Shown here: positions 12,944 to 62,141 of the stretch, in pieces
Layout: the number at the start of each line of letters is the position of its first letter
Numbering within the stretch: the stretch's first letter is position 1
NCBI GenBank assembly: GCA_032358255.1
Contig: JAULBX010030707.1
Location: 62,001 to 126,000, forward strand
Reading direction: 5' to 3'
Length of the DNA: 64,000 nucleotides
DNA from: Heterotrichella gracilis
Lineage: Eukaryota > Sar > Xanthophyceae > Tribonematales > Xanthonemataceae
Notes under the pieces: generated by a model
The model's database searches: none
Told to the model about the DNA's origin: nothing
Seen by the model: the letters and a program-made list of their open reading frames with translations, nothing else
Translations under genes and position numbers: made by a program

Positions 12944-15900
12944 ATGAGGTTGTGGGTGCCCTCTCCGCTTTCGTTCGCAGACAGGGGTCTCGAGCGGCGG
13001 TACCGGGTGCACCGGTGGCAGTCCATGCGAGTGGTGGACCAGAGCTCGAACTTCTTCCTAGGCGTGGTGGTCATGCCTGTGCTGTACAAGGGAAAGATGC
13101 TGCCGGTCCTTGGAGGTAGGGAGTCACGCACTCGCTTCAGCCCTGCGCCTCATCTCTGATTTGGTCCAAAAAAAGAACCTGCTTTAATGCATGCAGATCT
13201 GCCCAGCGAATGCCTTGCACGAGTGCTGGTCCACTGCTGACTTATCGTGCACACTGAACCACTTGAATGTTCATACGTGGTGCAGGTCTATGCAACTTGA
13301 CGATCGTCCTTGTTTCGCGACTGGCCAAGGTGAGGGTGCGTAGCTAGGCACTGTGCTCAGCACAGTGTGCTGGCTAAGTCTAGGCAGTCACAGGATTTTG
13401 CTTTTGGCTCAGAGCAAGTGGCCCAACCTACCATCAGCTATTGGCTGCTGCCCAGCGCAAGGCCTATCTATCAAGAGATGAGTCATTTAATGTAACATAC
13501 CTTCCAATGCATGCCAGCAAACGGCCAGGATAACATCAGCCTAGCAATTGTATCCATCCTGTCAGTGTGTCCTTCCACTCGATCTTACGCCGGCTAACTC
13601 ATGTTTTACCCTAGCAAGCTGGCTTCTGGCTATACGCCCAAGACAGGCTCACCATCACATCTCACACCTGCCGCCTGAAAGAATGACACCTGACACCACA
13701 CCATTTTATTATTTCTTTTTAATTCCCATCCCATCCCATATTTCATTGGTTGCGCAGGATGAGCATGCCGCCTTCTGGTCCGACGCGCGCGACGTGCTCA
13801 TCACCCTCAGCCACTTCTTCATGTTCCTGTCACCCACCGCGGTGCCCAACACCTACTGCGCCAAGGTCTCGGAGGCAGGGGACAACTGCCAGCGCATCTT
13901 CTGGCGCCTGCTGGCACACACCACCCTGCTTGCACGGGTGGCGGCCCCGCTGGTGCTTCGCCCGCAGCTGGGTTGCCTCATGGTGCTGTTGGCGTTCTGC
14001 ACCATCCACGACATTGCGCGGGTGGCGCCCATCCATTGCAGCATCACCCAGAGCTGCATGGCGGCGTGCGCGCCTGGCCTGGACCTACAGGTGGGTGGGA
14101 ATGGTGGTGTAGGGTTTAGGGTTTAGGGTTATTTGTCGGGCTCTAGCCTAGACCCTAAGACAGGAGGGCAGTTGCGCGTCCCAATGGACCTACAGGTGGG
14201 TGGGGATCGGGTGTAGGGTGTAGGGTTTAGGGTTTAGGGTTTGTTGTCGGACTCTAGCCTAGACCCTAAGACAGGCAGTTGCGCGCCCCACTGGACCTAC
14301 AGCCTGTAGGCTACAGGTGGGTGGGAATAATGGACAGGAGGGGTTTAGTGTTGAGGGCGAACGGGTTCTAGGCACACAACAAGAAGCCTAAACCGTAATC
14401 CCTACTGGCTTTCCCTAACTCTCCTTCAAGCGTGCCTGTTCAAGGACAGGCTGCATAGTAATATGACCCTTCTCTTTAATACTGTTTCGTTGTTGTTTGC
14501 TCCTGTCCGTCAGACATACAATTTTTCTTTTCTATTTGTTTTTCCTTGTGCAATTTCTCAACTGATTTTCAATTCCTTCCAGCACAAAAGGAAAACCAGC
14601 ACAAGAAGTGGCTTTCTTTCTGTAATCTATCAGCATATGTAATTATGCGTATTCTTTTACCTGCAGGTCTCCCAGCTGCTGCACGCGGGCCTGTCGATAC
14701 TGGGCAGCGTGGTAGCGGCTGGCGCGCACAACCCAGCGGTGCACCTGGACCCCGCCAACCGCCTGCAAGCGCACCACATCTGCTTTGTGAACCGCTCGGT
14801 GCTGTGGGTGCTGTGCCACATCGTGGCCCTGGTGCTCAGCTCGTGGCGGGAGGTGGCGGACCGGCGCGCGTGGCTCAAGACGCAGGTGCGGCGGCCGCCG
14901 GTGAGGATGATAGGGTGTAGGGTGTAGGGTGTTAGGTTTTAAACCTGTAACCTCAGGAAGTGGGGTTTTAGTAAAATCGATATGGATAGGGGTCTAAATA
15001 GCAGCAGAATATCAGTTATTGATGTGGTGTGGGTTTTAGGCGCTTGGTCCCGTGGGTGCTGTGCCACATTGTGGCCCGGGTGCTCAGCTCGTGGCGGGAG
15101 GTGGCGGACCGCCGCGCGTGGCTCAAGGCGCAGGTGCGGCGGGTGTGGGGGAGATGGGGGATATACCTCATCTGCCACATCATATACTTTTAATGCACGG
15201 AAAATAATAAAACGTTTATACCAACAGAAAAGTAGCAGGATAGGATATTTCCATTTGGCGCGCGTCGTTGAAGAGTGTCTCACTGCAGAATAATAACAGA
15301 TTGCAAAAGGATGTGTTGAAGGATGTTGTATCGATAAAGTAATACATACAGGAATAATGGTGTAGGGATTGTTGAAACGCCTGCTGCACGTTTGTTAACG
15401 CAGTGTCGCTTTTCACTGTGACCCGGGGAGAGAAACCATTTGGGGAATGGCATTTACTTGCTGCTGGTGTCGATTACTCTCCTCTTCTCCCAGGTGTCTG
15501 GCGAGGAGCATCAGCAGCAGGCACTGGAGGCAGCATGGCAGCAGGTGGGTGATAGCTATGGTCATGGAGGTGCATGATGTGAGCCATTTTGGGGGGCAGA
15601 GGAGATTATGCATCCCCGGGATGCATAATGCTGATAGGGTGCCAGTGTACTATGGGGTAGGTGGGATGGTAAGGGGCAACAGCAGCGGGGCAATGGAGGC
15701 AGGTGAGTGGTGCTGTGAACAGAGGGGGAGGCTCGGTGTTGGGGGAGGCCATGATGTGGGGTGGGGTGCATGGACACGTTGCATGTGTGCTGGGTGGCTC
15801 GCCGGTGCAGGGGCGTGCATGCTGTTGTTGTTACAGCGACACAGCAGGACCTGTTTGCAAGATTAGCAGGTGGAGTGAGCAGTCCCAGGGGTTTAACTTC

Positions 15901-16311
15901 TAAGCTCCTGATGTGCAATGCCGACTGTTGATCTGCATGTACCGCTGGAATGGAACATATCTGACTAGCTATATCTGGGAATGCACTCCACGCCCGCAGC
16001 TGTTAACCGACCCTCTGTCCCTATAGGGCCCAGCTCGTGTGTGTCATGTGCATTCTCTGCCCTCAACCCCGGGCCCGAAACCTAAAGGCACAGGGTCTTG
16101 CGGGTGGATTGCATGCTTCACTTCCAATCCCAAACCCCGCGCCAGTGGCAGTACTGAGCCGGGCTGTTTTTTCCCGCAGATGGATGCGCACTGGTCCTTC
16201 ATCCGCCTGCCCTGCAGCCCCGAGTTCATGGCCTATGTGGGGATGCTGGTGCTGTTCCTCATTTGTCACGAGCTGTTCAGCGAGTGGCTCAAGGGGAGGC
16301 ACCCTCGGTAG
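12944..16311 (+). CDS. Multi-pass membrane protein, tandem copy A
   Basis: Family not recognised. Exons 12944-13115, 13286-13329, 13758-14090, 14667-14885, 15494-15544 and 16180-16311 join in frame to 316 residues. The ATG at 12944 is kept in all three copies. It starts with a soluble stretch SFADRGLERRYRVHRW, then about six hydrophobic segments: FFLGVVVMPVL, LTIVLVSRLA, LSHFFMFLSPTAV, LVLRPQLGCLMVLLAF, VLWVLCHIVALVL and YVGMLVLFLICHELF. Conserved Cys occur in YCAK, NCQR and SCMAAC. The FxDxxLExxY start and short hydrophobic segments resemble membrane cassettes seen in front of some algal signalling enzymes, but no catalytic domain follows before the stop. Against B and C, this copy lacks one intron (exons 3 and 4 fused) and has one extra (between 14885 and 15494). 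Several introns hold diverged copies of exon ends. Confidence 0.7.
14081..14320 (+). repeat. Exon-end plus telomere-like repeat, three tandem units
   Basis: The end of exon 3 with its donor (GGACCTACAG then GTGGGTGG) occurs at 14081, 14186 and 14293, a period of about 105 bases. Telomere-like tracts lie between the first and second (14109-14131) and between the second and third (14209-14243). The units also share a 'ctctagcctagaccctaaga' block. Confidence 0.85.
14911..15136 (+). repeat. Telomere-like tract and copy of exon 4 end
   Basis: After the donor of exon 4 (14885) a degenerate TAGGGTG tract (14911-14940) is followed at 15044-15136 by about 93 bases nearly identical to 14804-14894, that is the last part of exon 4 and its donor. 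Confidence 0.85.
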
Positions 16312-17450
16312 GGTTTAGGGTTTGGAACCAAATGGATGCAACCCTGGTGGGGTGTAGGGGTTGGAACCAAGGGGATACAGACACACAGCTACAGCCTCTG
16401 GCAGAGTGCGAGCGGGAAGCTTTCTTCAGTGCTCCGCTGCACAGCAGAAAAGACACTGCGCTTGCTCTTGCCAATGGTTTATCACCCCCTTGGGGAGGGA
16501 GAACAAGAGGACCTGCAGTGCGCAGATGGCTGCTAGAACATGCCCTCGGGGGGGTGCTTGAGCTTGCGGTCATGCAGTGTGCTGCAGCCTGGCGCCGAGC
16601 ATTTTTTATATTTTGCACTCTGTCTATGGGATGGTGGGGACATAATGAACACTAATGCTCAGAAGTGGTATATTACAGAGTTTTCAATTTTTCATTGCTT
16701 ACAGGCGAACCATGTGCCATTATATGCACCACAAGTTTTCTTGGTGCCACCTGAACCCTGTCCTATTTTTGCCACCAGCAACACCCAATCGCTGTGCTCC
16801 AGCCGACCACCCTCTGAAAATTGGCCCTTCACCTTCAGAAACCTCGTTGACTTTTCAGTGCACCTCTTCCTGCCCCTGCTCGTAAACCCGCTATTATTAT
16901 CTTCTCTTTTCCATTTGCCTGGTGGCTGCCATCTTTCCCTTTCCAGTTTGTTCAAGCCTTAAAGATAATCACACCTCAAGCAGTTCGTTGACAATATGAG
17001 GTACATCCTGCATTGGTGCGTGTGTGGGTGGTTGGACCTGCTTACAAAGTTTTCCGGCAGCTGCAGTGTCTTGTACTCCATGCGACCTCAAGCCTTGAGT
17101 CAAGGTGAACGGTTTGTAACAGCCCTTTCTTTGATCCACTGCTCTTTTACGTCCAAATATCCAGGTCTTGGTAAAACGAAGGGTTTCAAAAAAGGGCTTT
17201 GTTTTAAATGTATTTTCAACCGTTCCAGTATCACGGACGTGATACAAGGTGCTATTCACCTCCAGTGCACTGACAAGGTGTCCTGTACTGCCGTAAACTG
17301 CACCACACGGAAGATACCTACCACACACTCGCACACAACTTATACTTGCACAAGTCGTGAGGACTTGTGTCGCCCGCCGTGTAGGTGGGACTAGGTGCAT
17401 GCACCCCTGATCACCCCGCAAGCGGCAGCCCAAGCCGGTGTCGAGATCCC
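16312..17450. other. Intergenic between copies A and B
   Basis: It begins with TTTAGGG-like sequence immediately after the copy A stop, including a short duplicated block (ggaaccaaatgga / ggaaccaagggga). From about 17090 it becomes homologous to 20500-20850, the region before copy C, marking the upstream part of the B/C duplication unit. No gene is supported. Confidence 0.5.
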
Positions 17451-19697
17451 ATGCGGGTGTCAGTGCCCTCACTACTGTCTTTCGCCGACAGGGAGGGGCT
17501 CGAGCGGCGGTACAGGGTGCACCGGTGGCGGTCCATGCGAGGGGTGGACATGGGGGCCCACCTGCTATTGATGCTGGTGTGCGTCCCTGTACTGCTCAAG
17601 GGAGGGACGTGGCCGGTGCTTGCAGGTAGGAAAAACCCTGCGCGCAGCCTCTTCAGACCGTATTAAGTCTGCAAGCTCCATCCTGAACCAATACTGCAGA
17701 ACCTGGCACGGTGATCCCCTGCATGCATGCGTACATGCATGCTGCCAGATAATGAGCACGTTTCGCGAGTGTAGACACCCAGTGCACAGACTGCTGAGTC
17801 ATATACGTGGTGCAGGCGCTTGCAACTTGGCGATGATCCTTGTTTCGGCACTGGGAAAGGTGGGCTCGCGTGCGTGCTGTTGTTTCGCAATACCCTAGGG
17901 GGTTTTGGTTCACTGGGCAGTGCTCACTAGGCAAAGAACCAGCCAAGCTGCCACGTGGTGGCTGCCTAATAGGCATATAGACACCAAGCTGCCTATTGGG
18001 TGACACCAACGTGCATATGCAGGAGGCACACGGCCATGTGTGGTCTGAAGCCCGGGAGGTGCTAACCACCCTTGCCCACTTCTTCCTGTACCTCACCCCC
18101 ACCGCGGTGCCCACCGCCTACTGCGCCAAGGTGTCTGCGGCAGGGGGCAGCTGCCAGCGCACCTACTGGAGCCTGCTGACCCACACCACAGTGCTGGCGC
18201 GCGTGGTCCAGCCGGTGGTGCTGCGCCCACAGCTCGGCTGCCTGCTGCTAGTGACTGCCGCCCTAGCTGTCTTTGACGTGGTCCAGGTGTGGCAGCGCCT
18301 AGGGTCTAGGGTCTAGGGTGTAGGATGTAGGGTTTGAACTCGCCTGTGCACCAGCGCGCCTCTTTAAGGATAGTCTGTGGGCGGGGGAGTTGCTGAACCA
18401 AAGTAACTTGTGAGGGGTGATCGGCATGATCGGCATTTTCTCCGCCTAATGACATAAAATTCTTGTTGTTGTCCCAGGCGGCACCTAGACAATGCAGCGT
18501 CATCCTTGGGGACGGGTGCATGGCTGCGTGCGCGCCCGCTTTGGACCTCCAGGTGGGTGGGAAATAGTGGACAGGAGGGCAATGCCTGGTGTGGGTCATG
18601 TGGTCTCCCCTTTGCTCCAATACAATGAAACTACGTTTAATGAAATAAATAAGTAATAATACAGATATAATAAGAAGTGGTTAGTCATAATGAAGACGAA
18701 TAACATTATTAATAAAGTATATATAATACTGTAAATAACCCTCATCTGTTTCCCAGGTGCGCCTTTTGAGGACAGGCTGCGTAGCTTAATATTAGATTTA
18801 AATGTGTCTTATGTATTTATGTGTTTAAAAACCGCAGGTCTCCCAGCTGCTGTTGGCGGCAGTGGGCAGCGCTGCGGCAGCGGGGCCGCACAAACCTCCA
18901 GCCCTCCCGGGTCCCGCCCACCAGCTCCAAGCGCACAGCATGTGCGTGGCCAACCGCTCCACGCTGTTTGTGCTGTGCCACATTGTGGCGCTGGCTCTGT
19001 GCGTGCGCTGGGAGGTGGCTGACCGACGCGCCTGGCTCAAGACGCAGGTGGCGAGGGAGGAGCATCAGCAGCGGGCACTGGAGGCAGCATGGCAGCAGGT
19101 GAGCGGTGGCCATGGCCATGGGGGAGACGGGGGATTGCATGATGTTGTATGCATGTTGTGATCGATATGGGGGAGTATGGGGGATGCATGATGCTCTATG
19201 CATGGTATTGCCGACATCTGGTGGTAGGGGAATGCATGATGCTCTATGCACGATGCTGGTACGGTGCCGGTGTACAGTGGGGGAGGTGGTGGTGAGGGGT
19301 AGGAGCAGCGGGCACTGGAGGCAGCTTGGCAGCAAATGACTGCAACTGGGGGGTGCGGTTACTTATGGTGATGCACTCACGTCTGCAGCAGATTTCCCAG
19401 TGCACCATCCTACAGGGTCCAGGACTTGCGCGCGATGTGGATGCCCTGCCAAAAAACCCTACACCCAAATCCACGGGAGCAATCTATTGTGTCCTTCAAA
19501 AACCGTATTGACCAGGGCTGTAATCCATCTTGAAAAACACAACCTGGTCACCAGGACTGTGTGTTTTGCAGATGGATGAATACTGTTCCTACCTCCGGCT
19601 GCCCTCCAGCCCCGAGTCCCTGGCCTACGTGGGGATGTTGGTGCTGTTCCTCATATGCCACAAATTGCTGAGCTTGTGGGTCGAAGGGAGGCAATGA
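17451..19697 (+). CDS. Multi-pass membrane protein, tandem copy B
   Basis: Paralog of the 12.9 kb gene. Exons 17451-17625, 17816-17859, 18023-18286, 18478-18552, 18838-19098 and 19572-19697 join in frame to 314 residues. Order of landmarks: SFADREGLERRYRVHRW, hydrophobic LLLMLVCVPVLL, LAMILVSALG, LAHFFLYLTPTAVPTAYCAK, VLRPQLGCLLLVTAAL, the short exon QCSVILGDGCMAACAPALDLQ, FVLCHIVALAL, and the final YVGMLVLFLICHKLL. The exon 18838-19098 is continuous where copy A is split by an intron, while exons 3 and 4 are separate where copy A is continuous. This copy is the cleanest of the three and is the best guide to the family. Function remains unknown. Confidence 0.7.
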
Positions 19698-20851
19698 TAG
19701 GCAGGCACATGGCCACAGCCTTGGGCACAGGGTGAGTGGGGAGGTTGAACGGTCCGCCGCCTGCGCAGCACAAGAGGCAATGTGCTGGCCGGGCAGCTCA
19801 AGGCTCGGCTTACTGTTTTAGGGTTTAGGGTTCAGGGTTCAGCATCAGCGATAAGCATGAGGCTCCGGTACCAATGGCCGCCTCATGCTTTTCCAGCCTT
19901 CAGACGGGAGCGCTGTGCCTAGAGCCACACCGTGTCGAGAGAGTGATTTTATGGACCATGCTCCATCACCCTACAAGTCTGGCAATCACTGTGCCTTCTA
20001 CCCGCGTAAGCTTAGGTAGTAATTTTCTGCCTGCACGAGGCTATGTCCTTGCTCAGTCTCAATTGGTTGAATGACGGCTGCCACATTTGTCCGGGGGGGT
20101 GGTTTTACAAATTCATTGCGACTGGGGTATTATACCTATGACATAGGCTTGTTTTTCCTTTCATTTCATCTTCTATTCTATAATAACAGAGTTAGATCGT
20201 TACATGCGTTCATCCAAATGTAGCACTTGTATTTAAGTCAGTCTTGCTTATATGCAGACGTATATGCAGACAGGCAGGTTCATCTCTTACAATGCTCAAT
20301 TTTTTGGTTTGTGATGTGGGTATGAGTTGTTGCACGGTGTCTTTGCTCCCCCGTCATGCTTTGACCGCATACCGTGGTCACTTGTTTCTTATACAGTGCC
20401 GCCTAATAGGATGTAGATCAGCGGTTTCTTAATTTATGCCTTCTGGGTTTATGTGCTGTGCTTTGGGTGCCTCTTCTACGAGCTTGCTCAAGCTTGTTAC
20501 ACGCACAGGTGCACTGAACAGTTTGGAGCAGCCCTGTCTTTTTCATCCACTGCTTTTATGTCAAGAGAAAGAAGGGGTTTTTGAAAGTTGTTATTCAAAC
20601 ACTTTTATTTAAAAACCTTTCAAGTGGCAAATGCTATCCCTCACCTTTGCAGTGCAGTGCAGTGCACGGATAAGGTGTACGGTACTGCAACACACGCAAG
20701 CATACTTGCAAACAACTTATTCGAGGACAAGCCGAATGAGTGCTTCTGTCACCTGCCGTGTGGGTGGGACCAGGGCGCCTATAGTGCGCATATAATGCAT
20801 GCACCCCTGATCACGCCGCAAGCGGCAGGCCAACCCGGTGCGTGAGGTCCC
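19698..20851. other. Intergenic between copies B and C
   Basis: It contains a telomere-like tract (about 19817-19840) and sequence homologous to the regions after copies A and C and before copy B. No gene is supported. Confidence 0.5.
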
Positions 20852-21684
20852 ATGCGGGTGTATGTGCCCTCCCCGCTGTCTTTCGCTGACAAGGAAGGGC
20901 TCGAGCGGCGGTACAGGATGCACCGGTGGCAGTCCCTACGAGGGGTGGACATCGGGTGCCATGTGCTCTTGATGCTGTTGTGCGTCCCTGTGCTGCTCAA
21001 GGGCGGGACGTGGCCCCTGCTTTCAGGTAAAAAACCCTTGCGCGCAGCCTCTTGCCCGGTGTGATCAAGGTTGCAAGCTCCACCCTTGCTCCACATGTGT
21101 TGATCAATATTGCGCCATGGCGTGCCCTGCATGCATGCTGTCCAAGAAACAAACACTTGTCATCGCGCACCTGTCCAGTTCACAGACTGCTGAGTCATAT
21201 ACGTGGTGCAGGCGCTTGCAGTGTGGCGGTTGTTTTTGTTTCAGCAGTGGCAAAGGTGGGCACAAGTCGTTGTTTTGCCACACCCTACATAAGGGTTATA
21301 GTTTTTGGTCCATCATGCAGCGCTGCCTGAAGGGCAGGTACACACCCAGAACCGCACTGCCACTTGGTGTAAAAGGCAGCAGTGCATGGCTTGTGGACAT
21401 TCTTGGCGGATGCATGAACCCGAAACCCCACAACTAAACCCTAACCCATATTTATGGCATGTACATTATTTGGAAACGCAACGCGTTAAAGGTTGGTTAG
21501 CTAGTTAGTTACATGCATTCCAGCAATACAGCCAGATCAGCAGTCAGTCTTGCGCGTGCGACGCGAGCAGCTCTTTCCTGGCACTGTTTGAACCACCTAT
21601 GCATCGCACGCGACTCGCGGTCCTGCTGGAGAAGGTCAGCCTCAAGAGGTGCTGACCCCTTGACAGCCTGCGCCCTACAGGAGC

Positions 21685-21868
21685 GATTTAGGGTTTAGGT
21701 TTGAGGGCACTTGGCACCAAACCACCTGCGCAGGAGGCACACGCTGCCTTATGGTCTAAAGCCCTAAACCCCAAAGAAGTGCTGCCCCCTCTACAGCGTG
21801 TACCCCACTGGAAGACGCCTGACACCAAACCTCCTGCGCAGGAGGCACACGCTGCCTTGTGGTCTGAA
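21685..21868 (+). repeat. Duplicated exon 3 head in copy C
   Basis: The acceptor and start of exon 3 (accaaaccacctgcgcagga and following GGCACACGCTGCCTT) occurs at about 21717 and again at about 21825, a period near 110 bases. TTTAGGG-like bases precede the first copy (21685-21706) and CCCTAAACCCC-like bases lie between them (21761-21777). Confidence 0.8.
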
Positions 21869-22121
21869 GCCCGTGAGGTACTGACCACCCTTTGCCACTT
21901 CTTCCTGTATTTCACCCCCACCGCGGTGCCCACAGCCTACTGCGCCAAGGTGGGGGCGGGGGGCAGCTGCCAGCGCAACTACTGGAGCCTGCTGGCGCAC
22001 ACTGCACTACTGTCACGCTGTTGTGCTGCGCCCACAGCTGGGTTGCCTGCTGCTGGCAAATGCCGCCCTAGCTGTCCATGACGTGGCCAAGGTGGGGGAC
22101 GTAGTGGACAGGAGGGCAGCG

Positions 22122-22203
22122 CTTAGGGTGTAGGGTTCAGGGTGTAGGGTTTTCGGTTGCCTGCTGCTGGCGACAGCTGCCCTAGTTGCCCATGGCCGCA
22201 CCG
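22122..22203 (+). repeat. Telomere-like tract and copy of exon 3 end (copy C)
   Basis: After the exon 3 donor (22091), a TTAGGGTGTAGGGTT-like tract (22122-22153) is followed by about 47 bases (22155-22202) resembling the end of exon 3 (about 22040-22091), beginning ggttgcctgctgctggc. Confidence 0.8.
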
Positions 22204-23114
22204 ATTCAAGGATAGCCTGTGGGCGGGGGAGTTATTGAACCCAAGTAACCTATGAGTGGTGAATGGCATGTATTTGTTTCAATTTGTTGACCTGTTTCTC
22301 ATGGTGCTGTCCAGGTGGCCACTAAACAATGCAGCGTCATCCTCGAGGATGGGTGCATGGCTGCATGTGCGCCCTCATTGGACCTCCAGGTGGGTAAAAA
22401 TAGTGGACAGGAGGGCAGTGCCTGGTGTGGGTCTTGTGGAATCCCCTCCGCTCCAATACCATAGCTAACTGAATATATAATGCAAACGAAACAGATAGTG
22501 AAGCAAGGTGAATTCTTGCAACAACACCTCCTCCAACAGTCTAATGACCCCGGGTTGGCTCCCTCATGACTGTCTCAAAATTCCTGTAAATTCCTGTAGT
22601 AATGAAGAGATAAATATTATTAATATAAATATTCTCTTATTATAACTGGAATAAATACAATAATAATAACAAAATAATGGTAATAAAAAGATGCTATTAA
22701 ATACTCCTCTTCCTCGACAGGCGCGCCTTTTGAGGACAGGCTGCGTAGTTTTAGCTTCATATAGGATATATATATTTACTATGTACTAATGTATATATTT
22801 ATTTTGTATATATTTATTTAAAACCTGCAGGTCTCCCAGCTGTTGCTGGCGGTCGTGGGCTTGGCTGCGGCGGCGGGAGCGGACAACCCACCAGGAATCC
22901 AGGACCCCGCCCACCAGCTCCAAGCGCACAGCATGTGCGTGGCCAACCGCTCCACGCTGTTTGTGCTGTGCCACGTTGCTGCGCTGGTGGTGTGCACCTG
23001 CTGGGAGTTGGCGGACCGCCGCGCGTGGCTCAAGATGCAGGTGGCGGGTGAGGAGGGGCAGCAGCGGGCACTGGAGGCAGCATGGCAGCAGGTGAGCGGT
23101 TGATGAAATTACAG

Positions 23115-23310
23115 CTTTAGGGTTTGGGGGCAGCATGGCAGCTGGTGAGCGGTGGCTATGGCCATGGGGGAGATGCATGGTGTGACCCATATCAGGGGGT
23201 AGGGGGGGTGCATGATGCTGGTACGGTGCCAATGTACAATGGGGTAGGTGGTATGGGGAGTTGCAGCAGCGGGCACTGGAGGTAGCATGGCAGCAGGTGA
23301 GCGGTGGCTG
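23115..23310 (+). repeat. Copies of the exon 5 end inside the copy C intron
   Basis: The exon end GCAGCATGGCAGCAG with donor GTGAGCGG (23077-23099) recurs at about 23129-23151, after a TTTAGGGTTTGGGG tract, and again at 23266-23305. The last is flanked by an acceptor-like TTGCAG and a GTGAGCGG donor and would make an exact 30-base in-frame exon. Copy B has a similar decayed repeat at about 19304-19336. Confidence 0.75.
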
Positions 23311-23654
23311 TAAATAAAAACTGGGGAGGCTGCTCAGGTGTGGGGATCCCCGCGTCTGCACCCAATGCACCATCCCTACAGGGTCTGGGGCCTGTGCATG
23401 GTATGGACGCCCTGTCACAAACCCTATACCCTCATCCACAAGAGTCGGTCTGTACCCTTTAAGGTGTGGACTGCAGACATGTTTGTCAGGACACAGAGTA
23501 TTGACCAGGGCTGCCATTCCTGCAGGTGGATGGGTACTGGTCCTACCTCCGACTGCCCTGCAGCCTCGAGTTCATGGCCTGGGTGGGGGTGCTGGTGCTG
23601 TTCCTCGTCTGCGACAAGTCGTTCAGCGCATGGGCTGAAGGGAAGCAATGGTAG

Positions 23655-24977
23655 ACATGCCCATGGCCACAGCCCCACACACACTGCTTTCACTCGTGAT
23701 TACTTAACGACTAAGTAGATAGCCGGGCAGAGGGTGAGTGGGAAGTTGCCATGGTCCCCGTTTGCGCAGCAGAAACTGGCAATGCGTGAGCTGCGCCAGA
23801 TTGATTATTTAGATGCGTATGATCACAATGCCCTGCATGGGGCTTATTCCTTGCTCAACAAGGCTTGCAAATACGGCTGCCACTATTTCCCTCCCATGCG
23901 CACATTCTTTTACCACATACACTGGGACGGGGGTGTTACACCTATGATACTGGCTTCCTTGAAGAAATAAATTGCTTTGAAGATAATAATTTTCATACAT
24001 ACTTGTTCTTTTGTAATAGGGTTAGTTCAAGCGTTCCCGCCATACAGCATGGACTCTGCTACAGTGTACTTGGCCTGAGGAAGATGGATATTTTAGTAAT
24101 AGTGGGTATTTCAGGTTGGGGTTTCTTTTCTATTGTTTGAATATTTTTTAGGATTCAACTGTTTTTTGTGAACATTTCCTGCATTTGGAGCATGACTTGC
24201 TCGTTGCTCGCCTCCCCGGGACCGGAGATTGCTCTATCCGGGAGACTCAGTTGCCCATGGTCTTTGGACTGCGGCGGGCTTCTCGTCATTATTCTGTTAT
24301 TCTACAGTGTATTTATACATGCTGCAGCCTTGCTTCCATGAAGACCGGCTTCCAGCTGCCTAGGCCGGTCTCAGACAGTGTTCCGACACTGCTCATACCA
24401 TTTCTGAATCGTGATAGGGGTATCATTGTTACATGTAATGCGCCCCAGTGGCACGCTGAATCTGTCTTGTGGGCTTGCCACCGCGATGAGGAGCAGTAGA
24501 GCCTCGAGCTCTGCTGATGGGGAGATAATTATGTCCAGAAAACTTGAGGCTCTTATACCAAGCATTCTTTTCAGCACAAAAATTGCGCCAACATGGACAC
24601 TGACAGACTCAGAGCACCGCCCTGACAGGAGCTATGTACATGACACATGAAGCTGGATTCGTGTACAAGGTACACAAAATGTCGTACAGAAACAGCCACT
24701 ACGGCACAGCACCAGACATAGAAATTCTAAACTAAACAACTCCTAAACTGAACAACATCTACTGCTACAAAACTGCCCAAAGGGCCTGAAAAAACTGCAA
24801 GGAGGTTACTGATGTATTGGAGAACGCGTTCCTATTCAAAGCTGTAGGTAAGGTGGGTCAGGTGTCGCACAACAGCCAGTTTGGGGCCATCAACCACTGT
24901 GTAGGTGAGGCTGTGCGCCCTGTGCCAGAGCAACCCCAGGAGCTGCCTGCCCTCCCGTTGGCTTGGACCCCAAAGCT
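23655..24977. other. Intergenic, no gene supported
   Basis: The first 400 bases are homologous to sequence after copy B, so they belong to the duplication unit. The rest includes the 3' end of the SCP2 gene on the minus strand. A short minus frame at 24371-24577 is discussed under rejected items. Confidence 0.45.
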
Positions 24978-54000: not shown

Positions 54001-55810
54001 CACATCCGCCAGCTCTTCCAGAGGCGGAAGCTGTGGAATGTCCTTTTGCTGCGCAGCGCTTGGAAGCAGGCCGTCTCCCGCTTCCATTGCGCCAGGCTCA
54101 CAAAGTCGGCGGTGCCATCCGCAAAGCGCTGCAGAATCCCCTGGGCCACAAGAGAGTCACATGGGTGAGTGTGGAGGACCCTTATAATGAACGATGCCAA
54201 GGATGGTGATTGTGCGCATTGCTTGGCATGGGCAATTGTGTTTTTGCACCTTGATTCCAGGCAGGCAACAGAAAAACCACGGTACCAAATGAACAACAAC
54301 GCCAAAAGCAGGCACCTGGTTCACATTTGAGGCAAAAAGAGCAAATATTGCTCATTTATTGCACGTACCTTGTCGGTCAGTGTGATCAGCTCTCCAGCGG
54401 GAAGCTGCTTGTACTCCACCACCTCCAGGTCGTATGGGTTGAAGTGGACAGAGCTTGCAGGGGTGGCACGCCGCAGGTAGTGCATCTCTGTGATTTCATT
54501 GGCGCTTGCATGGGCCAGCAGCTGCTTCCTGTCAAGGTGCTCTAACAGCCTATGCAGGTTTGAAAACGCAGAGTTCATGTAAAAACTCCCTACAGTGCCA
54601 TTCCTAAAAACATCCTGGTTCAAGCAAGCCCTCGTGCACAGCAGGACGCAACGCAAAATTCTGGCGGGAAAGGTGGCTCCATTGCCAACTGCCTGCGTCC
54701 ACCCACCGACCACCGCTAACACCTACTAGTGGTGACCTCAAAACCCCAAAGATCAAACCCTAGACCTTGTACATTACGCATTTTTCGAGTTTTACCCGAC
54801 CACCAATACCACCTACTGAGAGCAAAACATTTCCCACAACTGTGTGACATCAAATGCAGCCTGCAGTGCTTACGGACGGCTATGCTGCGCAGGCAGTGGC
54901 ACCCGTCACAGGGACTTGCTGGCAGCTGGTAATCGATGCCATGCAAATGGTGGTATTGGGTGGCCTTTAAAGTAATAAATATGTTTTTTGAGAGCTATTA
55001 CTACAAAAACTTTAGCAAAATAATAATAAAAATTGATTGCAAATGGTGTACATATTCATCAGCCGGCCTGGAAGCACTGCAACCTCAGCCCTGCCTTATG
55101 CGCATGCCCTGCTGCCCAATGCACTGGAGGCTTACCATGTGTACTGCGCCCTGCCACTTGCCCCGTGTTGGCGCCTTTCCGGAGGAGGCTCCGCCGCAGT
55201 AAGCACCGCCCCTGCATTGTGTGCGGACCTCAGTACACCCTGGTAGGTCGTAAGGGAATAAACCCCTTAACGTGCCAGAGTCTCTTTAGGGTTTAGGGCT
55301 AGAATGAAACCCTACTGCCAGCGGAACCAGGTGTAGACGGTCAGGCAGGTGCGCAGTACAGTATTGGCCCTTTCCAGCGACAACAACATGCGCATCACCA
55401 TTTAGGATCCATTCGTCTGCTAGGTTGTGAGCATCGGTGGTATGCTTACTTTGTGAGGGGCTGTGGACAGCAGCATCTGAGGGTTGCGCAGCCACATCTT
55501 GTTCTGTAGTTGCAACAACCCTTACTGCAGGTCCCTCCTGGTGTGGCTGCGAGCACCAGCAAGGACTTGATCAACCTCCTGATTGAAGGCAGAACTGCAG
55601 CACAGCGTTGGTGCGCAGAATGCACATACCTTTGATACCTTGCTCCGCCCCTTGGTGTTCTGCTCCTTGAGGCATATGCTAGCCAGAAGCTCCCCCGGAC
55701 GCTGTGGCACCAGTGCAGCCTGTCAGTATCCTTTTTTTTGAACCTGTTTAACTAGTGTAAGCATAGCAACATACCTTCCTGTGCAGATGTGCCGGGGTGC
55801 TCCCATCCAT
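30725..55810 (-). CDS. Axonemal dynein heavy chain (inner-arm, single-headed type)
   Basis: The motor subunit of a flagellar inner dynein arm, which uses ATP to slide outer doublet microtubules. The complete order of a dynein heavy chain is visible on many short exons: tail, linker, AAA1-AAA4, stalk with microtubule-binding domain, AAA5, AAA6 and C-terminal domain. The start is set at 55810 ([12 protein letters not shown], 55775-55810), followed by exons 55630-55719 and 55450-55503 in frame; the next junctions up to about 54550 are not solved. The stop is at 30725 after [15 protein letters not shown], matching the usual HWIxRGxALLC end. The short tail and the AAA2 sequence [18 protein letters not shown] suggest the single-headed inner-arm group (DNAH1/3/6/7/12 type); I cannot say which. 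Introns are AT-rich and short, often 100-400 bases. No disabling change was noticed in the motor exons. Confidence 0.9.
36100..38380 (-). other. Dynein: stalk and microtubule-binding domain
   Basis: [12 protein letters not shown] (about 38235-38270) leads into the outgoing coiled coil ([40 protein letters not shown]), and [20 protein letters not shown] starts the microtubule-binding domain. [20 protein letters not shown] (about 37040-37115) continues it. GLCMWV-like [19 protein letters not shown] (about 36710-36770) and [20 protein letters not shown] form the returning coil, ending near 36110 with [20 protein letters not shown]. Confidence 0.85.
38600..40060 (-). other. Dynein: AAA4
   Basis: The exon near 39030-39660 reads [20 protein letters not shown], then the Walker [20 protein letters not shown] (about 39325-39385), [17 protein letters not shown], and [13 protein letters not shown]. 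The arrangement is that of a functional AAA4 regulatory ATPase site. Confidence 0.85.
40390..42310 (-). other. Dynein: AAA3
   Basis: Exons carry [12 protein letters not shown], then [20 protein letters not shown] with an intact Walker A (about 41530-41590), [13 protein letters not shown] as Walker B (about 41075-41115), [32 protein letters not shown] and [20 protein letters not shown] (40405-40480). The usual CAPPGGGRNPV segment is altered to [10 protein letters not shown]. Confidence 0.85.
42800..44580 (-). other. Dynein: AAA1/AAA2 boundary and AAA2
   Basis: [20 protein letters not shown] (about 44430-44490) closes AAA1. AAA2 follows with the P-loop region [16 protein letters not shown] (about 43845-43900), where the second Gly of GxxxxGK[ST] is Ala. 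Then [42 protein letters not shown] (43240-43450) and [13 protein letters not shown] (about 42835-42875), all strongly conserved in dyneins. Confidence 0.85.
43027..43044. repeat. Interstitial telomere repeat in a dynein intron
   Basis: AACCCTAAACCCTAAACT lies just after the exon of AAA2 in reading direction reversed. It shows that telomere-type repeats also occur in this gene's introns, though far less often than in the membrane and SGNH genes. Confidence 0.8.
44540..45562 (-). other. Dynein: AAA1, main ATPase site
   Basis: Walker A is [18 protein letters not shown] (plus coordinates about 45421-45473), followed by [12 protein letters not shown], whose exon starts at 45357 on the plus strand. 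The next exon (up to 45220) begins [20 protein letters not shown] and supplies the Walker B region [16 protein letters not shown]. Then [20 protein letters not shown] and [20 protein letters not shown] (44780-44880). All catalytic motifs of the main hydrolytic site look intact. Confidence 0.9.
45640..48100 (-). other. Dynein: linker (DHC_N2) exons
   Basis: Exons contain [20 protein letters not shown] (about 47900-47960), [18 protein letters not shown] (about 47460-47520), [16 protein letters not shown] (about 46760-46830) and [20 protein letters not shown] (about 46140-46220). Then follow [15 protein letters not shown] and [18 protein letters not shown] (45740-45890). These are the conserved linker motifs in family order; the linker swings to produce the power stroke. 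Confidence 0.8.
51195..51280. repeat. Tandem repeat in a dynein intron
   Basis: Two units of about 41 bases, each reading 'gggcacaaca' then 'ggcatgcaaccggttaa' or a close variant, lie at about 51199-51241 and 51248-51279, within an intron of the dynein tail. Confidence 0.7.
51640..51745. repeat. Tandem repeat in a dynein intron
   Basis: The block 'ccatccagtgctggattgta' with 'tgatcagca' before it occurs at about 51642-51677 and again at about 51709-51745, a period of 67 bases. Both units are followed by 'ttgagt'. Confidence 0.75.
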
Positions 55811-57190
55811 GCTGTTCAAGGCAGGACAGCCCAGTTGCGCTCAGCTTGCAGCATGGCAAACCCTGCCAAGGAAAGTGTGAAAGCTAAAGGATGGCAAGCG
55901 CCTGAGGATATAGCAGTGAATGGGTATATAGGGGCGGCGTATTCATAGCTCACACACTGGAACTCGTTGAAGGGCACTAACAGAGACTTTGACTGGGAAC
56001 ACAAGGCTTTTGTGGGCAACGAACCCTGATACAATAGTGCCTGTCGCAACGCTATAATCTTCTTACGACTTTCAAAGTGATACAGTGATAAATGCAGGTT
56101 GATTTGTGATGTTTATGAGCCCACAGCAAAACCACAATCGGTCAGGTTTTGGGCTTGCCTGCCACAAGTGCAGAAAAAACCGCCTTGGCACAACCAATAC
56201 CGCTTAGACGTTCGCACAGTGTACATAATTGAGCGATTGCATTTCTTGCTAGACTTGTGACAAGTTGGGAGGTATTGGGTTGGTTTTGTACAACGCAAGT
56301 ATAGAACCAACGAGCTATGTGTTGACCTCAACCATATGCATCCATACAAGCCAACTCGTACACTAGCGTGCTCAAACCCTAGAAAAGGCGCAAGAGCCAC
56401 AGACCCAGAAAAATGTAGGATTTACACAACCCACCTCTTTCTGCCGGGCTGTGCAGCTGCAGCAAAAGCATGTTTCTTACTCCGCTGCCAGGACATGCGG
56501 GGCCTGCATGCGATAGCGAAACCCTCGACCCAATACTAAGTACGTGTACGTCGAAACCGCAGTGTATCCTCCAAATTAGCTTGTACGCAAAAACCACCTG
56601 TGTTGACACCAAAAAAACTCTCCATTTGCATACAAAACCCTCATATGAATGCTATCCATACTGCCCGGTGCACTGTCTGCGTGAGGTCGACCTCGCTCAT
56701 TCGTGAAAAAGTGGGGCCCACATTGTGGGCCACAACTTGGCAAACATCTACACGTGTACGGTAGATGTAGCGTACTACACAATCCAAGCTGGTTGTTGCT
56801 GACACAACCCTGACAGTTCGCTCGCTAAATTATTGTGTGTGGAATACTTTTGTATAGGTACGTACTGCCTACTCCGAAGTTGAACGCAGCCCACTTTCCA
56901 CAAGCCTCGATCTCTGTCAAGGGCGGTGTTGTGAGAAAGGAGCACCCTGTGTCGTGACATCCGTTTGCAGCATATACCTTGGCCTGTCATTAGCCAGCTG
57001 AGCAGCCCATCATCACCTTACAGCCACATCGCTGACGCCCATCTGGACGCTCAACGACTTTCAGCTGCCCTGGACCGCACCATACGCCTCCATGTACCCG
57101 AAACCAGCCAGATCCCCGCCCCCCAGACCTCCATGATGACTGGCCGATGCCGATGATAGCGGCCTGGCAAGTGACTACTCGCCCACCAGC
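55811..57190. other. Divergent intergenic region, dynein / SGNH
   Basis: The two genes start about 1.4 kb apart on opposite strands, so promoters of both probably lie here. I see no reliable gene; frames at 56113-56706 are short, overlapping and unrecognised. A single CCCTAG-type telomere-like motif occurs near 56375. Confidence 0.45.
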
Positions 57191-60100
57191 ATGGCCCACA
57201 TGCACGCCTCGCCCGCACCGCTATGGCTGCTGTGGGCAGCCGTCTGGCTCGCAACCTGCTCGGCCATGGTGTACCCTCCCATCGGCTCGTGTGCCACCTC
57301 CCCATCCGCGCTCGAAGCACGCAGGCGGGAGCCTTTCAACGAGGTTCGCCTTGTCACCCACCAGAGACTACCTGAGGACTCGGCCTTTCTGCGCAACGGC
57401 ACGGAGGTACGAAGCCGACGCCATGATGCCCTGAAACTGGAATGAACCTTAAACTTGTGGGGCGCTGCAAATCTGCAAAACCCTGGTGGCTTGACAAACC
57501 GCCTCGGAGGATCCTTTTTGGCGTATGCATGGACCATGATTTATACAGGGTTACGTCAAGTTGTCAAGAGATTTGCTGATGCCTTAATCACGCACCTCCT
57601 GCAGGTGCAGGTATCTCATATCAACTAGTAAGCTATTCATGTCCGAGTTTGGCCCTCCCGGCAGCACGCTTGTATGCACCCTTTGCAGCATGCCCTCCTC
57701 TCCACCTCCCCCTTCTGCCTTGTCCTGCTTTTAATAATAGATACCAAGCAGCAAAGTTAAAGTCCAACTGCCCTTTCTACTTGCTGCAGTGGCCTATTCT
57801 GAACCAGATCTACACTTATGAGCCAGCGCTGCCCGCATCCAGACTGGCGCTGGCTCGGGGGGTGACAGGCAACGCCTCACGCATGCGCTCTGTATTTGCA
57901 AGGCTGTTGGCAGGTAAGGGAGGCGTGGATGGGGCCCCACGTAGCACAGCTCCCTTGATGCAGATGGGCATGTGAGAGGCATGTGGCACGTACTAGGGTT
58001 TGGGTGTAAGGTCAGGGTTTACGGTTTGGTCAACAACAGCTGGGTCCGGGGGTGACAGGCGCCTGCGTGCTGTGTTTGCAAAGCTGCTGGCAGGTAGGGG
58101 AGGGCTTGAATTGGACACGGGACCTCTGGCTCTGGGTGGCTTGTGCAAAAGATACCATCTGGGCAGACCACTTAGGGTTTGAGGATTGGTCCCCATCTGA
58201 CGCAGAACCCTTGATGCAGATGGGCTCATGAAATGTGTCAGGGTTTGGGATGCAGGGGTAGGGTTCAGGGTGTGGTTAACAACAGTTGTGTGACGGGTTT
58301 GGTGGACGGTCTGCCATGTAGGTTTGCATGGGCCGTGGCCTGGTGGCAACCCTAAGTACTAAACCCTAACGCAGTCACTCGAGCGTGTGCAATGCTGGCT
58401 CGGCATCTGCATCACTACCATGGCAACATCCTTTATTTAGATTGAAAGCACAAAAGGGTTAACCCTGAACCCTACAGCTGCACCTGCAATGCCACCAACC
58501 TCAGCCATCCTCCCATACCCACCAACCCCACCCACCCCCCTCTCCCCCCCTCCCAGGCCAGCCCATCACGGCCGTCATGCTAGGTGGCAGTGTGACCGCA
58601 GCAGCAGGAGCCATGTACCCCGCGCAGGAGGGGTACGCATACCAGGTATGGCGGGGGCACCTGGCAGAATGAGCGCCCTGCTAGGCTGGCTTTCTGTCAC
58701 TATCGCTTTGCATGTTGAGGGACGCATTGGCAACGCCCCTGTACATGGAGAGGAGGCATGCGGTTTTTCTTTCCTTGCATGCTCAAACCCTAATCCCTGT
58801 GATTCTAAACCCTAACCACATGCCTCCCAGGTGCTAACGTTCATCAACACACCCATGGATCAACCTGCACCCCGTCCACGCCTCCTCAGCCCCTAAACCC
58901 AAACCGGATGCCTTGCAAAATGCTGATATGAGTTAACACCGTTTTACAGTACCCCGGGCCTCCACATCCTGAACCCCTTAACCCTAAAACCTGTATGGTT
59001 TATGAACCCAACCCCTACGTAAAGCCTAAACCAACGCCTCCCTGTTGCTGATGTGGACTCCTAAGGCCTTACACGTATAGATTCCATAAACCTAAACCCT
59101 GACACACAAATCCTACATTACGGTACCCTAAACCCTCCACCCCTCAGGTGCTGACGTGGCTCAACACCACCTTCCCGCATCCCGGCCACCGCCTGCTCAA
59201 CCCCTCAGTGGGTGGCATCGCCTCGCTGTGGTACATGGCCTGCCTGGAGGACTTTGTGCCCCCAGATGCAGACCTGGTGGTGCTTGAGTGGACGCTGAAC
59301 GACTACTTTGTGGCGGGGAAGGACTTTGACTCCGTGTACAGGTAAGGGGGGATGTCTGGCATTTGGCGCTCTGAGTGTTTGCCAAAGGGGCAAGGGCATG
59401 GCAGTGTTGGGTGGCCGCTGGTCTTGATCTGGCTGTACCGTTGGAACAGCTAGAGTGCATAAGTCTTGATAATATACTAGAGAGCGCTGAACCAACACCT
59501 CCGTGGCCGAAAAGGATTTTGCCTCGGTGTACAGGGGTGTGCAGAAGGTGTACTGCTGATGTGTGGTTGTGATGACTCGATCTTGTTAACAAAAATTGGG
59601 AGGAGACTTTAGTGGAAGCCACTTCTCCTGCACAACAATTCCAGCCTTGCATTACACGCGGACATTGGTGGCACATCGCTACACATGCTTTTCATCAACC
59701 ACTGGCACACCCACCCACCCCACCCCATCCCCTGAATACGGTACCCCACTCAAAACCCCACACGCCCCACCCCACCCACAGGCAGTCCCATGAGGTCATC
59801 CTGCGCCGCCTGCTCTCCCTACCCACCCACACCGCGGTCCTGTACCTCCATTGGTACGCCCCCTTCTACGCCAAGGGGGGGATTTTCTTCGAGACCGCAG
59901 AGGACGCGCTGGACATTTTCATGGCCCACTACGACATCCCCTCCCTCTCCTTCCGCAACTCGCTGTATGACCTCATACAAGGGAATGTGACAGGGTACCA
60001 GTATGTGCAGATGTTCTGTGACGAGGCCCACCCCAACCAGCTGGGCCACAGGTGAGGAAATGGCATTTGAAAGGGTTAATGCAATAGTCTGAAATATAGC

Positions 60101-62141
60101 GCATGTATGTTAGAAAATCATCGTTAAAGATTTATAATAAAATGCAATTGCACCAGGCCATCGCTCGACCTGCTATGCAAGGCAGAGATTGAATCCTAGA
60201 AAGCACTAAAACCACGGCGGGGGCGTGGAGAGAAATACAGTGTTAATATAATCTATGCTGATCCTTATGCCGTACCCTCCCCTAGGTACTTATCAGACAT
60301 CGTGATCGCCTACCTGCAAGACGTGGCCGCTGACGTGGCGCTCAATCCGCTGACTCAGCGCGACACCGATGCCCTGTCAGCGCCCCTCATGGACCCCCTG
60401 CTGCCCTACGACACCACGGGGTCCAGCTGGTGCAGGCGAAACCATGCGCTGGAGGAGGTGCAGGTGGCGGCGAACCAGGTGCGGGGTGCGGGGGGGGGAC
60501 CAAAGGGGGCGCATAGGTGGGGGATTGTGGAAATAAGATCAATAAAGTCGGAGGCCAGCATTCTGTTGCCTGCTGATTTGAATCTAGACCGTGCATTGGA
60601 TGTATGATCCCAGATGGCCTCGTTCTCAAACATTTCATTTCTGCCTCGAGTAACGCCCACCTACTTGAGACCAGGGGCGCATTTATCCATCTGTATACAT
60701 TTGTTCATGCGTTTTTCCCATTTTGCAGGGCTGGCAGTACACCCCCCTGCACTACAACGGCCAGGACGGGTTTGGCTACTCCACCACCACGCCTGGTGCG
60801 CTGCTGCGGCTGAAGCTCCAACCCGCCCAGTGCGGCGAGCCTGCGGTGTACGGGGAGGGGTCGGTGGTCGGTGTGGGGTACATCAAGGCATTTGGTGCTT
60901 TGGGCAGCGCCACGTTGAGCTGTGTGGAGGGGTGCACATGTGACACACAGGTGCGCAAACCCTAAACCCTAAACCCAAAAATAGGGTGCCTCTCTAGGGT
61001 GGGATCTAGGTAGGTCATGCAGGGTCATAATCACAAGTAATTTGGTGCGGGGGCCCAGCGCCACATTGAGCTGCGTGGATGGGTGCACGTGTGACACGCA
61101 GGTGTGCAAACCCTAAACCCTAATGCTTGATGGCGTAGACCGTCTCCTTGAAGCTGGTGGTGTGGAGCATGTCCGTGGGCGTGATCATGCGGCATGAGCT
61201 GTGATATAGGTAAATCATGTAGATGCTTAGGGAGAAAAGCAGAAAGGGATCGCACACAGGCGGAGCTAGTGGGTTGCAGGGGAGGCGCACTAGCACCAGG
61301 TGTGCTTGATAGATCATCCACCCCGTGACACCCACCTTCCTTCAAATTCGGTGGGAAATTTGTGGCCGCTTTTGACGTGCGCCCACCCACCTTGGTACAG
61401 ATGCTTGATGCCAGCAGCCAGCGCAACGTGTCTGAGGAGTCCTGGGCCTACCTGTCAGTTGCACAGACCCAGGCCTGCGCCCTGGAGCTCAAAACAGGTG
61501 GGGATGGCAGCAGATGGCAGGGGAAATGGTGGTCACATATAGTAATAGCATTTCCTCAAAGGTAATGTCCTCCTTTTTGTTACCTCCTTCAGGAGGTTTC
61601 GTATGGACCTGCCCAGGAACGCGCTGCACGCATGCCATTCATCAAGGTTACATCAAATATATGTTCACATTGCAGGCATCGGGTATAGGATGGTATCTCC
61701 GTGTTCTTGTTATGTTCTGTAAATTTTTTAAATATTTTCATTATCATATGAATTCCAGCCTTGAAGCTAAATCAGCCAGGTCACATTGCATACCCGGGGA
61801 TGCAAATCTGTGATGCTCTGTAAGATGTACAGATAGCTGCTTTCACATATCTATTTAACGTGTAAATCTGCGCACACAGGCGACGCACCAGCGGCCCCCG
61901 GCACCGTACACATCAAATTAACCTGTAATTTGCGCACACAGGCGACGCACCAGCGGCCCCCGGCACCACCTTGAGCTTCCACCTCACCGCGCTCAGCGTC
62001 AGCTGCAGCAGGCCAGCCACCGCGCAGTACTTCCAGAAAGCCGACCTGGCCAAGGTCAAGTCCCACGAGGATGAAACGGATGCGCGCTGTGCCGTGGGGC
62101 AGCCTGTGCTGGGGGGCCACGTGTGCCCCGGGAATGCGTGA
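57191..62141 (+). CDS. Secreted SGNH/GDSL-type hydrolase
   Basis: A probable ester hydrolase of the SGNH fold entering the secretory pathway; substrate unknown. Nine exons (57191-57406, 57790-57913, 58557-58645, 59148-59341, 59782-60051, 60286-60478, 60729-60950, 61401-61497, 61942-62141) join in frame to 534 residues. The start MAHMHASPAPLWLLWAAVWL is a signal peptide. Block I is MLGGSVTAAAG (nucleophile Ser125), block II NPSVGGIAS (Gly165), block III LEWTLNDY (Asn194), and block V FCDEAHPNQLGHRYL (Asp288, His291), giving the full Ser/Gly/Asn/His set. The C-terminal third is a Cys-containing beta-rich region (CVEGCTCDTQ, VSCSRPATAQY). Exon 8 could begin earlier, since its frame is open to about 61345, but only the 61401 acceptor joins in phase. 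Three introns contain duplicated exon edges. Confidence 0.82.
57993..58095 (+). repeat. Telomere-like tract and copy of SGNH exon 2 end
   Basis: After exon 2 (ending 57913) a TAGGGTTTGGGTGTAAGG-like tract (57993-58027) is followed by a copy of the exon end and donor at about 58038-58097, matching 57848-57919 (CGGGGGTGACAGGC, TGTTTGCAA and GGCAGGTA blocks), with an internal deletion of about a dozen bases. Confidence 0.8.
58790..59135. repeat. Degenerate CCCTAAA cluster in SGNH intron 3
   Basis: Intron 3 is studded with CCTAAACC, AACCCTAACC and similar telomere-like motifs (about 58792-58816, 58892-58906, 58977-58990, 59020-59032, 59090-59101, 59126-59133). This is the densest such cluster in the window. 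Confidence 0.75.
60957..61122 (+). repeat. Telomere repeats and copy of SGNH exon 7 end
   Basis: Three CCCTAAA units (60957-60979) follow the exon 7 donor. At 61056-61102 the exon end is repeated (CAGCGCCACATTGAGCTG, GGGTGCACGTGTGACACGCAG, donor GTGTGC), again followed by AAACCCTAAACCCTAA. Exon end and repeat tract are thus duplicated together. Confidence 0.85.
61872..61977 (+). repeat. Duplicated acceptor and start of SGNH exon 9
   Basis: The segment 'gcgcacacag' plus GCGACGCACCAGCGGCCCCC occurs at 61871 and again at 61933, a period of 62 bases. Only the second copy continues into the open exon; the first ends in CCGGCACCGTACAC. No telomere-like bases lie between. Confidence 0.85.

Follow-up and report, generated by a model that had tools for sequence, protein, structure and literature searches.

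We analysed a 64,000-nucleotide window of the Heterotrichella gracilis genome (assembly GCA_032358255.1, contig JAULBX010030707.1, positions 62,001 to 126,000 of the forward strand; all coordinates below are those of the window). At several places in this window, the edge of an exon recurs as a diverged direct copy in adjacent DNA, mostly the neighbouring intron, and sequence resembling the telomere repeat TTTAGGG lies between the copies or beside them. As the first-pass annotation of this DNA had claimed, the arrangement recurs in two unrelated gene families on the plus strand, both of which carry it. Family A comprises the three tandem paralogs A1, A2 and A3, which are ~75% identical; the second family is represented by gene B.

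12944–16311, plus strand: gene A1, 316 amino acids in six exons, with an open frame through GT-AG introns.
12944–13115, 13286–13329, 13758–14090, 14667–14885, 15494–15544 and 16180–16311, plus strand: exons of A1.
17451–19697, plus strand: gene A2, a paralog of A1 and A3, 315 amino acids in six exons, with an open frame through GT-AG introns.
20852–23660, plus strand: A3, paralog of A1 and A2, with its frame broken in exon 3 by an 11-nt gap.
57190–60950, plus strand: gene B, seven exons found, with a weak GDSL-lipase-like match.

The 11-nt gap in A3 is seen against A1 and A2 within exon 3 (21842–22091) and probably makes A3 a pseudogene. Pfam searches to an E value of 0.1 matched neither A1 nor A2 to any family, the A2 query sequence being slightly inexact. 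Gene B matched Lipase_GDSL_2 at E 0.0015, which is under the curated cut-off. Searches for relatives of family A returned 6 pattern stretches in the viral_contigs collection and 24 in genome_contigs, none of them confirmed.

The window contains 35 telomere-like tracts, against 1, 2, 1, 0 and 1 in five dinucleotide shuffles. The pattern AGGG-N3-AGGG occurs 33 times and each of eight alternative spacings only 1–8 times, demonstrating a strict 7-nt periodicity; among 67 mismatches, T to G at position 2 is the most frequent (13). The internal arrays resemble TTTAGGG in motif and period, and the host telomere repeat is taken to be TTTAGGG. Excerpts of PMC8226300 give the same unit as the ancestral green-algal telomere repeat. 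The tracts and the duplicated exon edges are arranged as follows.

14068–14328, plus strand: start of A1 intron 4, consisting of exon end with donor, tract, exon-end copy with donor, tract, exon-end copy.
14106–14130, plus strand: telomere-like tract in unit 1 of A1 intron 4, followed by the C-strand remnant CCTAGACCCTAA.
14209–14242, plus strand: telomere-like tract in unit 2 of A1 intron 4, followed by the same C-strand remnant CCTAGACCCTAA.
14793–14894, copied at 15041–15142, plus strand: A1 exon end and its copy, 93% identical.
16301–16370, plus strand: short tandem where the A1 coding sequence ends, holding a telomere-like tract with the stop codon TAG (16309–16311) inside it.
19284–19334, plus strand: copy of the A2 exon-5 end, no telomere tract (control); the related A1 stretch is 15659–15702.
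21687–21872, plus strand: A3 exon-3 start locus, with a TTTAGGG tract, the copy (21703–21764), a CCCTAAA tract (21759–21775) and the original (21811–21872).
23049–23316, plus strand: A3 exon-5 end locus, with the exon end (23049–23091), a tract (23116–23129) and copies at 23125–23157 and 23254–23316.
57849–58225, plus strand: B exon-2 end locus, with the exon end and donor, a tract (58014–58027) and the copy (58039–58103).
58785–59215, plus strand: B exon-4 start locus, where CCCTAAA tracts alternate with exon-4-start copies before the exon at 59148.
59485–59535 (source 59293–59342), plus strand: B exon-4 end copied without a telomere tract (control).
60884–61123, plus strand: B exon-7 end locus, with exon end, donor and CCCTAAA tract (60957–60980), repeated at 61034–61123 with its own tract (61108–61123).

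Direct reading and a repeat search recovered an exon edge, a diverged direct copy and a TTTAGGG- or CCCTAAA-like tract between or beside them at all six places that the first-pass annotation had listed, and at a smaller seventh. At least two further places have the same anatomy, namely the copies of the B exon-4 start and the tandem at the A1 coding end. In A1 intron 4, a 111-bp unit is repeated 2.1 times over 14080–14302 (Tandem Repeats Finder), with exon-end copies at 14185 and 14274. At the A1 coding end, 16301–16331 and 16341–16370 match at 27 of 30 positions, the tract itself being counted in the match; the stop codon forms the first three bases of the tract TAGGGTTTAGGG, and A2 reads TGA TAG at the aligned position, without a tract.

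In A3, the segment 21703–21764 copies the end of the intron together with the start of exon 3 and is not present in A1 or A2; with the tracts masked, 21712–21757 and 21820–21865 are 93% identical. By eye, a shared CCC, a candidate for break-site nucleotides in register with the repeat, is seen at 21762–21764. Further along A3, an exon end at 22041–22080 recurs within intron 3 at 22155–22194 (85%), and the exon-end stretch 23049–23111 is copied in each of 23125–23157 and 23254–23316. In gene B, identity is 75% at the exon-2 end (57849–57923 and 58039–58103), where the intron part 57927–57969 also recurs at 58183–58225, and 86% at the exon-7 end (60884–60972 and 61034–61123). A candidate third copy of the exon-2 end near 58317 was not significant (p = 0.57). 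The exon-4 start copy at 58823–58894 has a tract on each side and matches at 51 of 63 positions, with 0 of 1,000 shuffles as good; a shorter copy at 59040–59060 matches at 18 of 20 (p = 0.003). The exon-4-start copy escaped BLAST and was found by direct alignment, and it was kept out of the association test below.

The copied exon-edge segments are 40–113 bp long, each taken from its own locus, and the flanking sequence is duplicated directly on both sides of the insert, as in staggered-break tandem duplication. With tracts masked, the window holds 22 local direct-repeat pairs of at least 30 bits; six block-shuffled windows gave 0, 0, 0, 0, 1 and 0. The copy spans an exon edge in 7 of the 15 pairs in families A and B (null 3.08, p = 0.016), a figure biased by the slow decay of exon copies. 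Because most copies contain the exon–intron junction, with intron sequence past it, an origin from spliced mRNA was excluded; the copies are DNA-level tandem duplications. We also rejected the idea that the A1 copy at 15041–15142 is a mutually exclusive exon: only the last part of the exon is covered, its amino-acid sequence has changed, and an upstream donor to match it is neither needed nor evident.

These features bear on whether introns are made by an introner, or by another mobile element with telomere-like termini, inserting into exons, an explanation that we consider very improbable. Two introns are paralog-specific, and the start of A3 intron 3 resembles that of intron 4 as if copied across (22102–22130 and 22401–22429, 86%), suggesting that some intron sequence is shared between sites. 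Against an introner, the 22 local pairs and a self-comparison of the window revealed no insert common to the tract sites beyond the tract and paralog homology, and the copies are each locus's own exon edge rather than a target duplication of fixed length. Near-identical inserts at many unrelated sites, the mark of an introner, were sought and none was found within the window.

For the association between tracts and duplications, the 22 pairs were merged into 16 duplication loci and compared with a circular-shift null, exon limits being approximate in this test. A tract was present in 7 of the 16 loci (null 1.77, p = 0.008). Shifting within the noncoding DNA of family A, 5 of 6 loci had a tract (null 2.03, p = 0.019), and 8 of 15 tracts fell inside duplication loci (null 2.59, p = 0.0007). 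The association is real and unusual, and it is clear in family A. The link that the first-pass annotation drew between telomere tracts and exon-edge duplications thus holds for family A and is not significant in family B alone, in which 2 of 4 loci had a tract (null 1.27, p = 0.39). Several further observations weigh against a tight coupling. Outside any detected duplication locus lie 24 of the 35 tracts, 9 of the 16 duplication loci are tract-free, and so are at least two exon-edge copies (19284–19334 in A2 and 59485–59535 in B). Moreover, of 11 TTTAGGG-array loci examined on contigs in viral_contigs (the later L012–L014 are outside that count), none had a tract inside a local duplication, these being a different kind of DNA and of no use as relatives. 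Among them, the IMG/VR contigs L001, L008 and L009 carry TTTAGGG arrays of ~100 bp, and L008 and L009 share a tract layout.

A chance origin, in which fast-evolving introns of multi-copy genes gather local duplications and telomere-like microsatellites with no causal link, is in our judgement quite unlikely. Tract density does differ strongly between regions (per kb: family A, 1.34; family B, 1.97; 28–56 kb, mostly dynein, 0.25; 1–12.8 kb, 0.08), and together with the non-significant result in family B this speaks for coincidence; the enrichment within family A noncoding DNA speaks against it. Alternatively, tracts may enter introns independently and, being fragile or prone to slippage, later provoke tandem duplication of adjacent DNA, exon edges included. 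The many tracts without a duplication indicate that tracts can come first, and at 14080–14302, 57849–58225 and 60884–61123 both copies have a tract, as if it had been duplicated along with the exon edge. At 14793 and 22041, by contrast, a single tract lies between the copies and none is called past the second, which is the prediction of insertion with target duplication. On balance, we consider a tracts-first order rather unlikely.

Comparison among the paralogs, a rough substitute for orthologs at ~75% identity, provides approximate empty sites. A1 intron 4 starts like its counterparts in A2 and A3 (CAG/GTGGGT, the slash marking the splice junction); only in A1 does the array of tracts and copies follow, after which shared sequence resumes. 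Tract-free counterparts are provided by A2 and A3 at this intron, and by A1 and A2 at the A3 exon-3 start. Two intron positions differ among the paralogs.

14886–15493, plus strand: A1-specific intron, 608 bp, phase 0, CAG/GTGCGG...CAG/GTG; A2 and A3 have no intron here.
14911–14939, plus strand: telomere-like tract of the A1-specific intron, 25 nt from the donor.
18287–18477, plus strand: A2 intron 3, 191 bp, phase 0, with a tract at 18300–18335, 13 nt from the donor; absent from A1.
22092–22314, plus strand: A3 intron 3, 223 bp, phase 0, with a tract at 22123–22158, 31 nt from the donor, and the copy at 22155–22194; absent from A1.

Presence and absence of both introns fall at identical codon positions in A1, A2 and A3, and A1 reads uninterrupted (GCG CGG GTG GCG) at the site of A2 and A3 intron 3. 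All three instances of the paralog-specific introns have a tract 13–31 nt after the donor, and two of the three (A1 and A3) also have an exon-end copy; an exon-copy remnant sought in A2 intron 3 found no support (p = 0.80). By our own tally, tracts occur in 3 of 3 paralog-specific intron instances and 4 of 12 shared introns, numbers too small to claim a difference.

The copy in the A1-specific intron matches the exon of A1 at 95 of 102 positions (93%), that of A2 at 70 of 79 (89%) and that of A3 at 69 of 84 (82%). Being nearest to A1's own exon, this copy is probably younger than the paralog split. The nearest relative of the A3 copies is less clear, with, for example, 25 of 26 matches to A2 over a shorter stretch versus 43 of 46 to A3. 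The copy of the exon-5 end in intron 6 is, by its distribution, older than that in the A1-specific intron: both A2 and A3 carry it, and a related stretch occurs in A1 (36 of 41). The A2 version lacks a tract, so exon edges can be duplicated, or their duplicates retained, in the absence of telomere sequence.

The first-pass annotation had proposed that such events feed new splice sites into genes. The paralog-specific introns, beginning as they do with telomere tracts, make this more plausible; at the same time, the three genes alone make gain and loss equally parsimonious, and any use of the copied sites is hypothetical. Retention of the neighbouring introns speaks against wholesale mRNA-mediated loss, and exon-end copies inside the intron would favour gain. 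Intron gain from tract and duplication events is a plausible hypothesis. The standard model, that a duplicated AG-GT supplied both splice sites, fits neither paralog-specific intron. Such AGGT tandem-duplication gain (review PMC3443670; this and the other literature compared here is cited from excerpts, unless a full text is named) resembles the present loci in that exonic segments with AG-GT are tandemly duplicated. It differs in the position of the acceptor, which by homology does not fall at the duplicated AG: in the A1-specific intron, homology with A2 and A3 places it at 15493 and the AG of the copy is at 15133, and in A3 intron 3 the exon-end copy ends short of the junction.

We next consider the orientation of the tracts. 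Around the 35 tracts, opposite-strand tract sequence (p ≤ 0.02) is located past the GGG end in 7 cases and past the opposite end in 2 (Wilcoxon p = 0.006). Opposed tracts show a head-to-head tendency, as expected if both ends of a break received telomere repeats. Two features of this test detract from it: some pairs are counted from both members, leaving ~4 independent strong pairs, and both contrary cases are junctions within the 14080 array. Orientation also varies along introns of A and B, the 5' halves holding 8 G-strand and 4 C-strand tracts and the 3' halves 2 and 11 (Fisher p = 0.015). Collapsed to one orientation per intron half, the ratios are 6:3 and 0:5 (p = 0.031, one tie dropped). 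This polarity was spotted in the data rather than predicted beforehand. The test includes the intron after 60950, with its end assumed near 61400; without that intron, p = 0.003. In the dynein gene, placement was possible for 3 of the 7 tracts, using Pfam matches and a single sequence inspected by eye. These three agree with the polarity (p = 0.005 when they are included), but we do not rely on them.

Polarity of this kind could also arise if tracts are kept for splicing, with G-rich UUUAGGG near the donor and pyrimidine-rich, branch-point-like CCCUAAA near the acceptor tolerated or favoured, and the duplications as by-products. Tract-masked introns share the skew (+0.13 in 5' halves, −0.05 in 3' halves); with tract-free intron sequence skewed in the same way, splicing selection could yield the tract polarity. 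Telomerase healing of both ends predicts it equally, however, and a tract is often missing from the same intron of a paralog, which indicates that it is not needed for splicing. Closeness of tracts to exon edges is weak and not significant, with 6 of 15 within 35 nt in family A (null 2.99, p = 0.053) and 2 of 12 in family B (null 2.26, p = 0.72). We regard retention for splicing as highly unlikely.

The explanation that we favour, with about even confidence, is that these loci are scars of DNA-break repair in the nuclear genome, left when telomerase extended staggered breaks that were then filled in and joined. Nicks on the two strands, separated by tens of bases and located at or close to an exon edge, would produce protruding 3' ends, to one or both of which telomerase would add TTTAGGG. 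Filling in of the opposite strands would copy the overhang onto both sides, and joining would leave exon edge, TTTAGGG(n), optionally CCCTAAA(n), and exon-edge copy, in effect a telomeric insert bounded by a long target-site duplication. Some products may later have expanded into tandem arrays (14080–14302, 57849–58225 and 60884–61123), and all would decay through mutation. In a three-unit telomere array, all six reading frames contain a stop codon, so such an insertion can survive in coding sequence only where splicing removes it. Survivors would be channelled into introns, and some could turn into new introns, candidates being A1 14886–15493 and intron 3 of A2 and A3. Three observations sit awkwardly with break repair of this form. 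Two fall outside its simplest version: at 21687–21872 the G and C tracts enclose the copy itself, and the tract found after the donor side at 60957 is a C tract. The third is that duplications of 40–113 bp are longer than the 4–12-bp exon-terminal repeats of Daphnia.

Each ingredient of break repair as outlined here is known separately, and the combination is new. In Nergadze et al. 2007 (PMC2246262), 6 of 130 rodent and 4 of 25 primate interstitial telomeric insertions had a target duplication; so did 3 of 66 horse loci, where these were ascribed to staggered breaks (horse/human 2020, PMC7215372). As here, these are short internal telomeric arrays of which a minority (4.5–16%) have a direct target duplication, interpreted as repair of a staggered break; among complex rearrangements, head-to-head telomeric stretches occur at one horse locus, and 31% of the human ones are intronic. 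Unlike the mammalian sequences, several of the best cases in this window copy exon–intron edges over 40–113 bp, and two are located in introns specific to certain paralogs. In mouse and human cells, breaks with 3' overhangs give rise to tandem duplications through CST-guided DNA polymerase alpha-primase, the telomere C-strand fill-in machinery (PMC8355091). There too the overhang is tandemly duplicated; a telomeric insert is not reported in the excerpted text.

Among intron gains, Daphnia neointrons attributed to staggered double-strand breaks have internal direct repeats in 55 of 90 cases (PMC4202315). They share with the present introns a presence/absence pattern and exon-end copies, at the far intron end in Daphnia. 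They differ in the shorter repeats noted above, and the word stem 'telomer' occurs nowhere in the text of that paper. Telomerase has been proposed to add telomere units to free 3' ends in transcribed DNA, as the source of plant telo boxes (Gaspin et al. 2010, PMC3022908), which differ in being single motifs enriched in 5' untranslated regions, without exon duplication. In the excerpts of two papers from a literature search on intron gain and telomere repeats, PMC8226300 and PMC12730881, no link between the two was found.

The step from break-repair scars to intron birth is an attractive hypothesis. In its boldest form, staggered breaks, telomerase-healed at both ends and then joined, would be a recurrent source of spliceosomal introns here. 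Some introns would then be miniature telomere fusions of the form exon-TTTAGGG...CCCTAAA-exon with the copied exon edge as target duplication, and splicing would let an insertion that is always nonsense survive. We put this forward tentatively and think it rather unlikely. How new introns originate has long been an unsettled question, and few of those gained reveal where they came from. If the tracts mark the break, they label the repair event, and intron gain through break repair becomes countable genome-wide and datable by tract decay. If true, it would also connect the activity of telomerase at internal breaks with gene structure in a non-mammalian lineage.

Elsewhere in the window, a dynein heavy chain gene on the minus strand has Pfam matches to Dynein_C, AAA_9, AAA_8, AAA_7, AAA_6 and lid domains. 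Two dynein fragments searched against solved structures had 8glv_Fm as top match; 8glv is the Chlamydomonas doublet. An inverted repeat of 150 bp (2686–2835 and 21492–21641, 80% identity, 19 kb between copies) has its second copy in the A3 intron upstream of exon 3 and is possibly a dispersed element. Separate from the exon-edge loci, 5594–6859 and 7658–9005 form a 1.3-kb duplicated pair with 73% identity, and a 64-bp unit forms a tandem array at 74–222 (93%).

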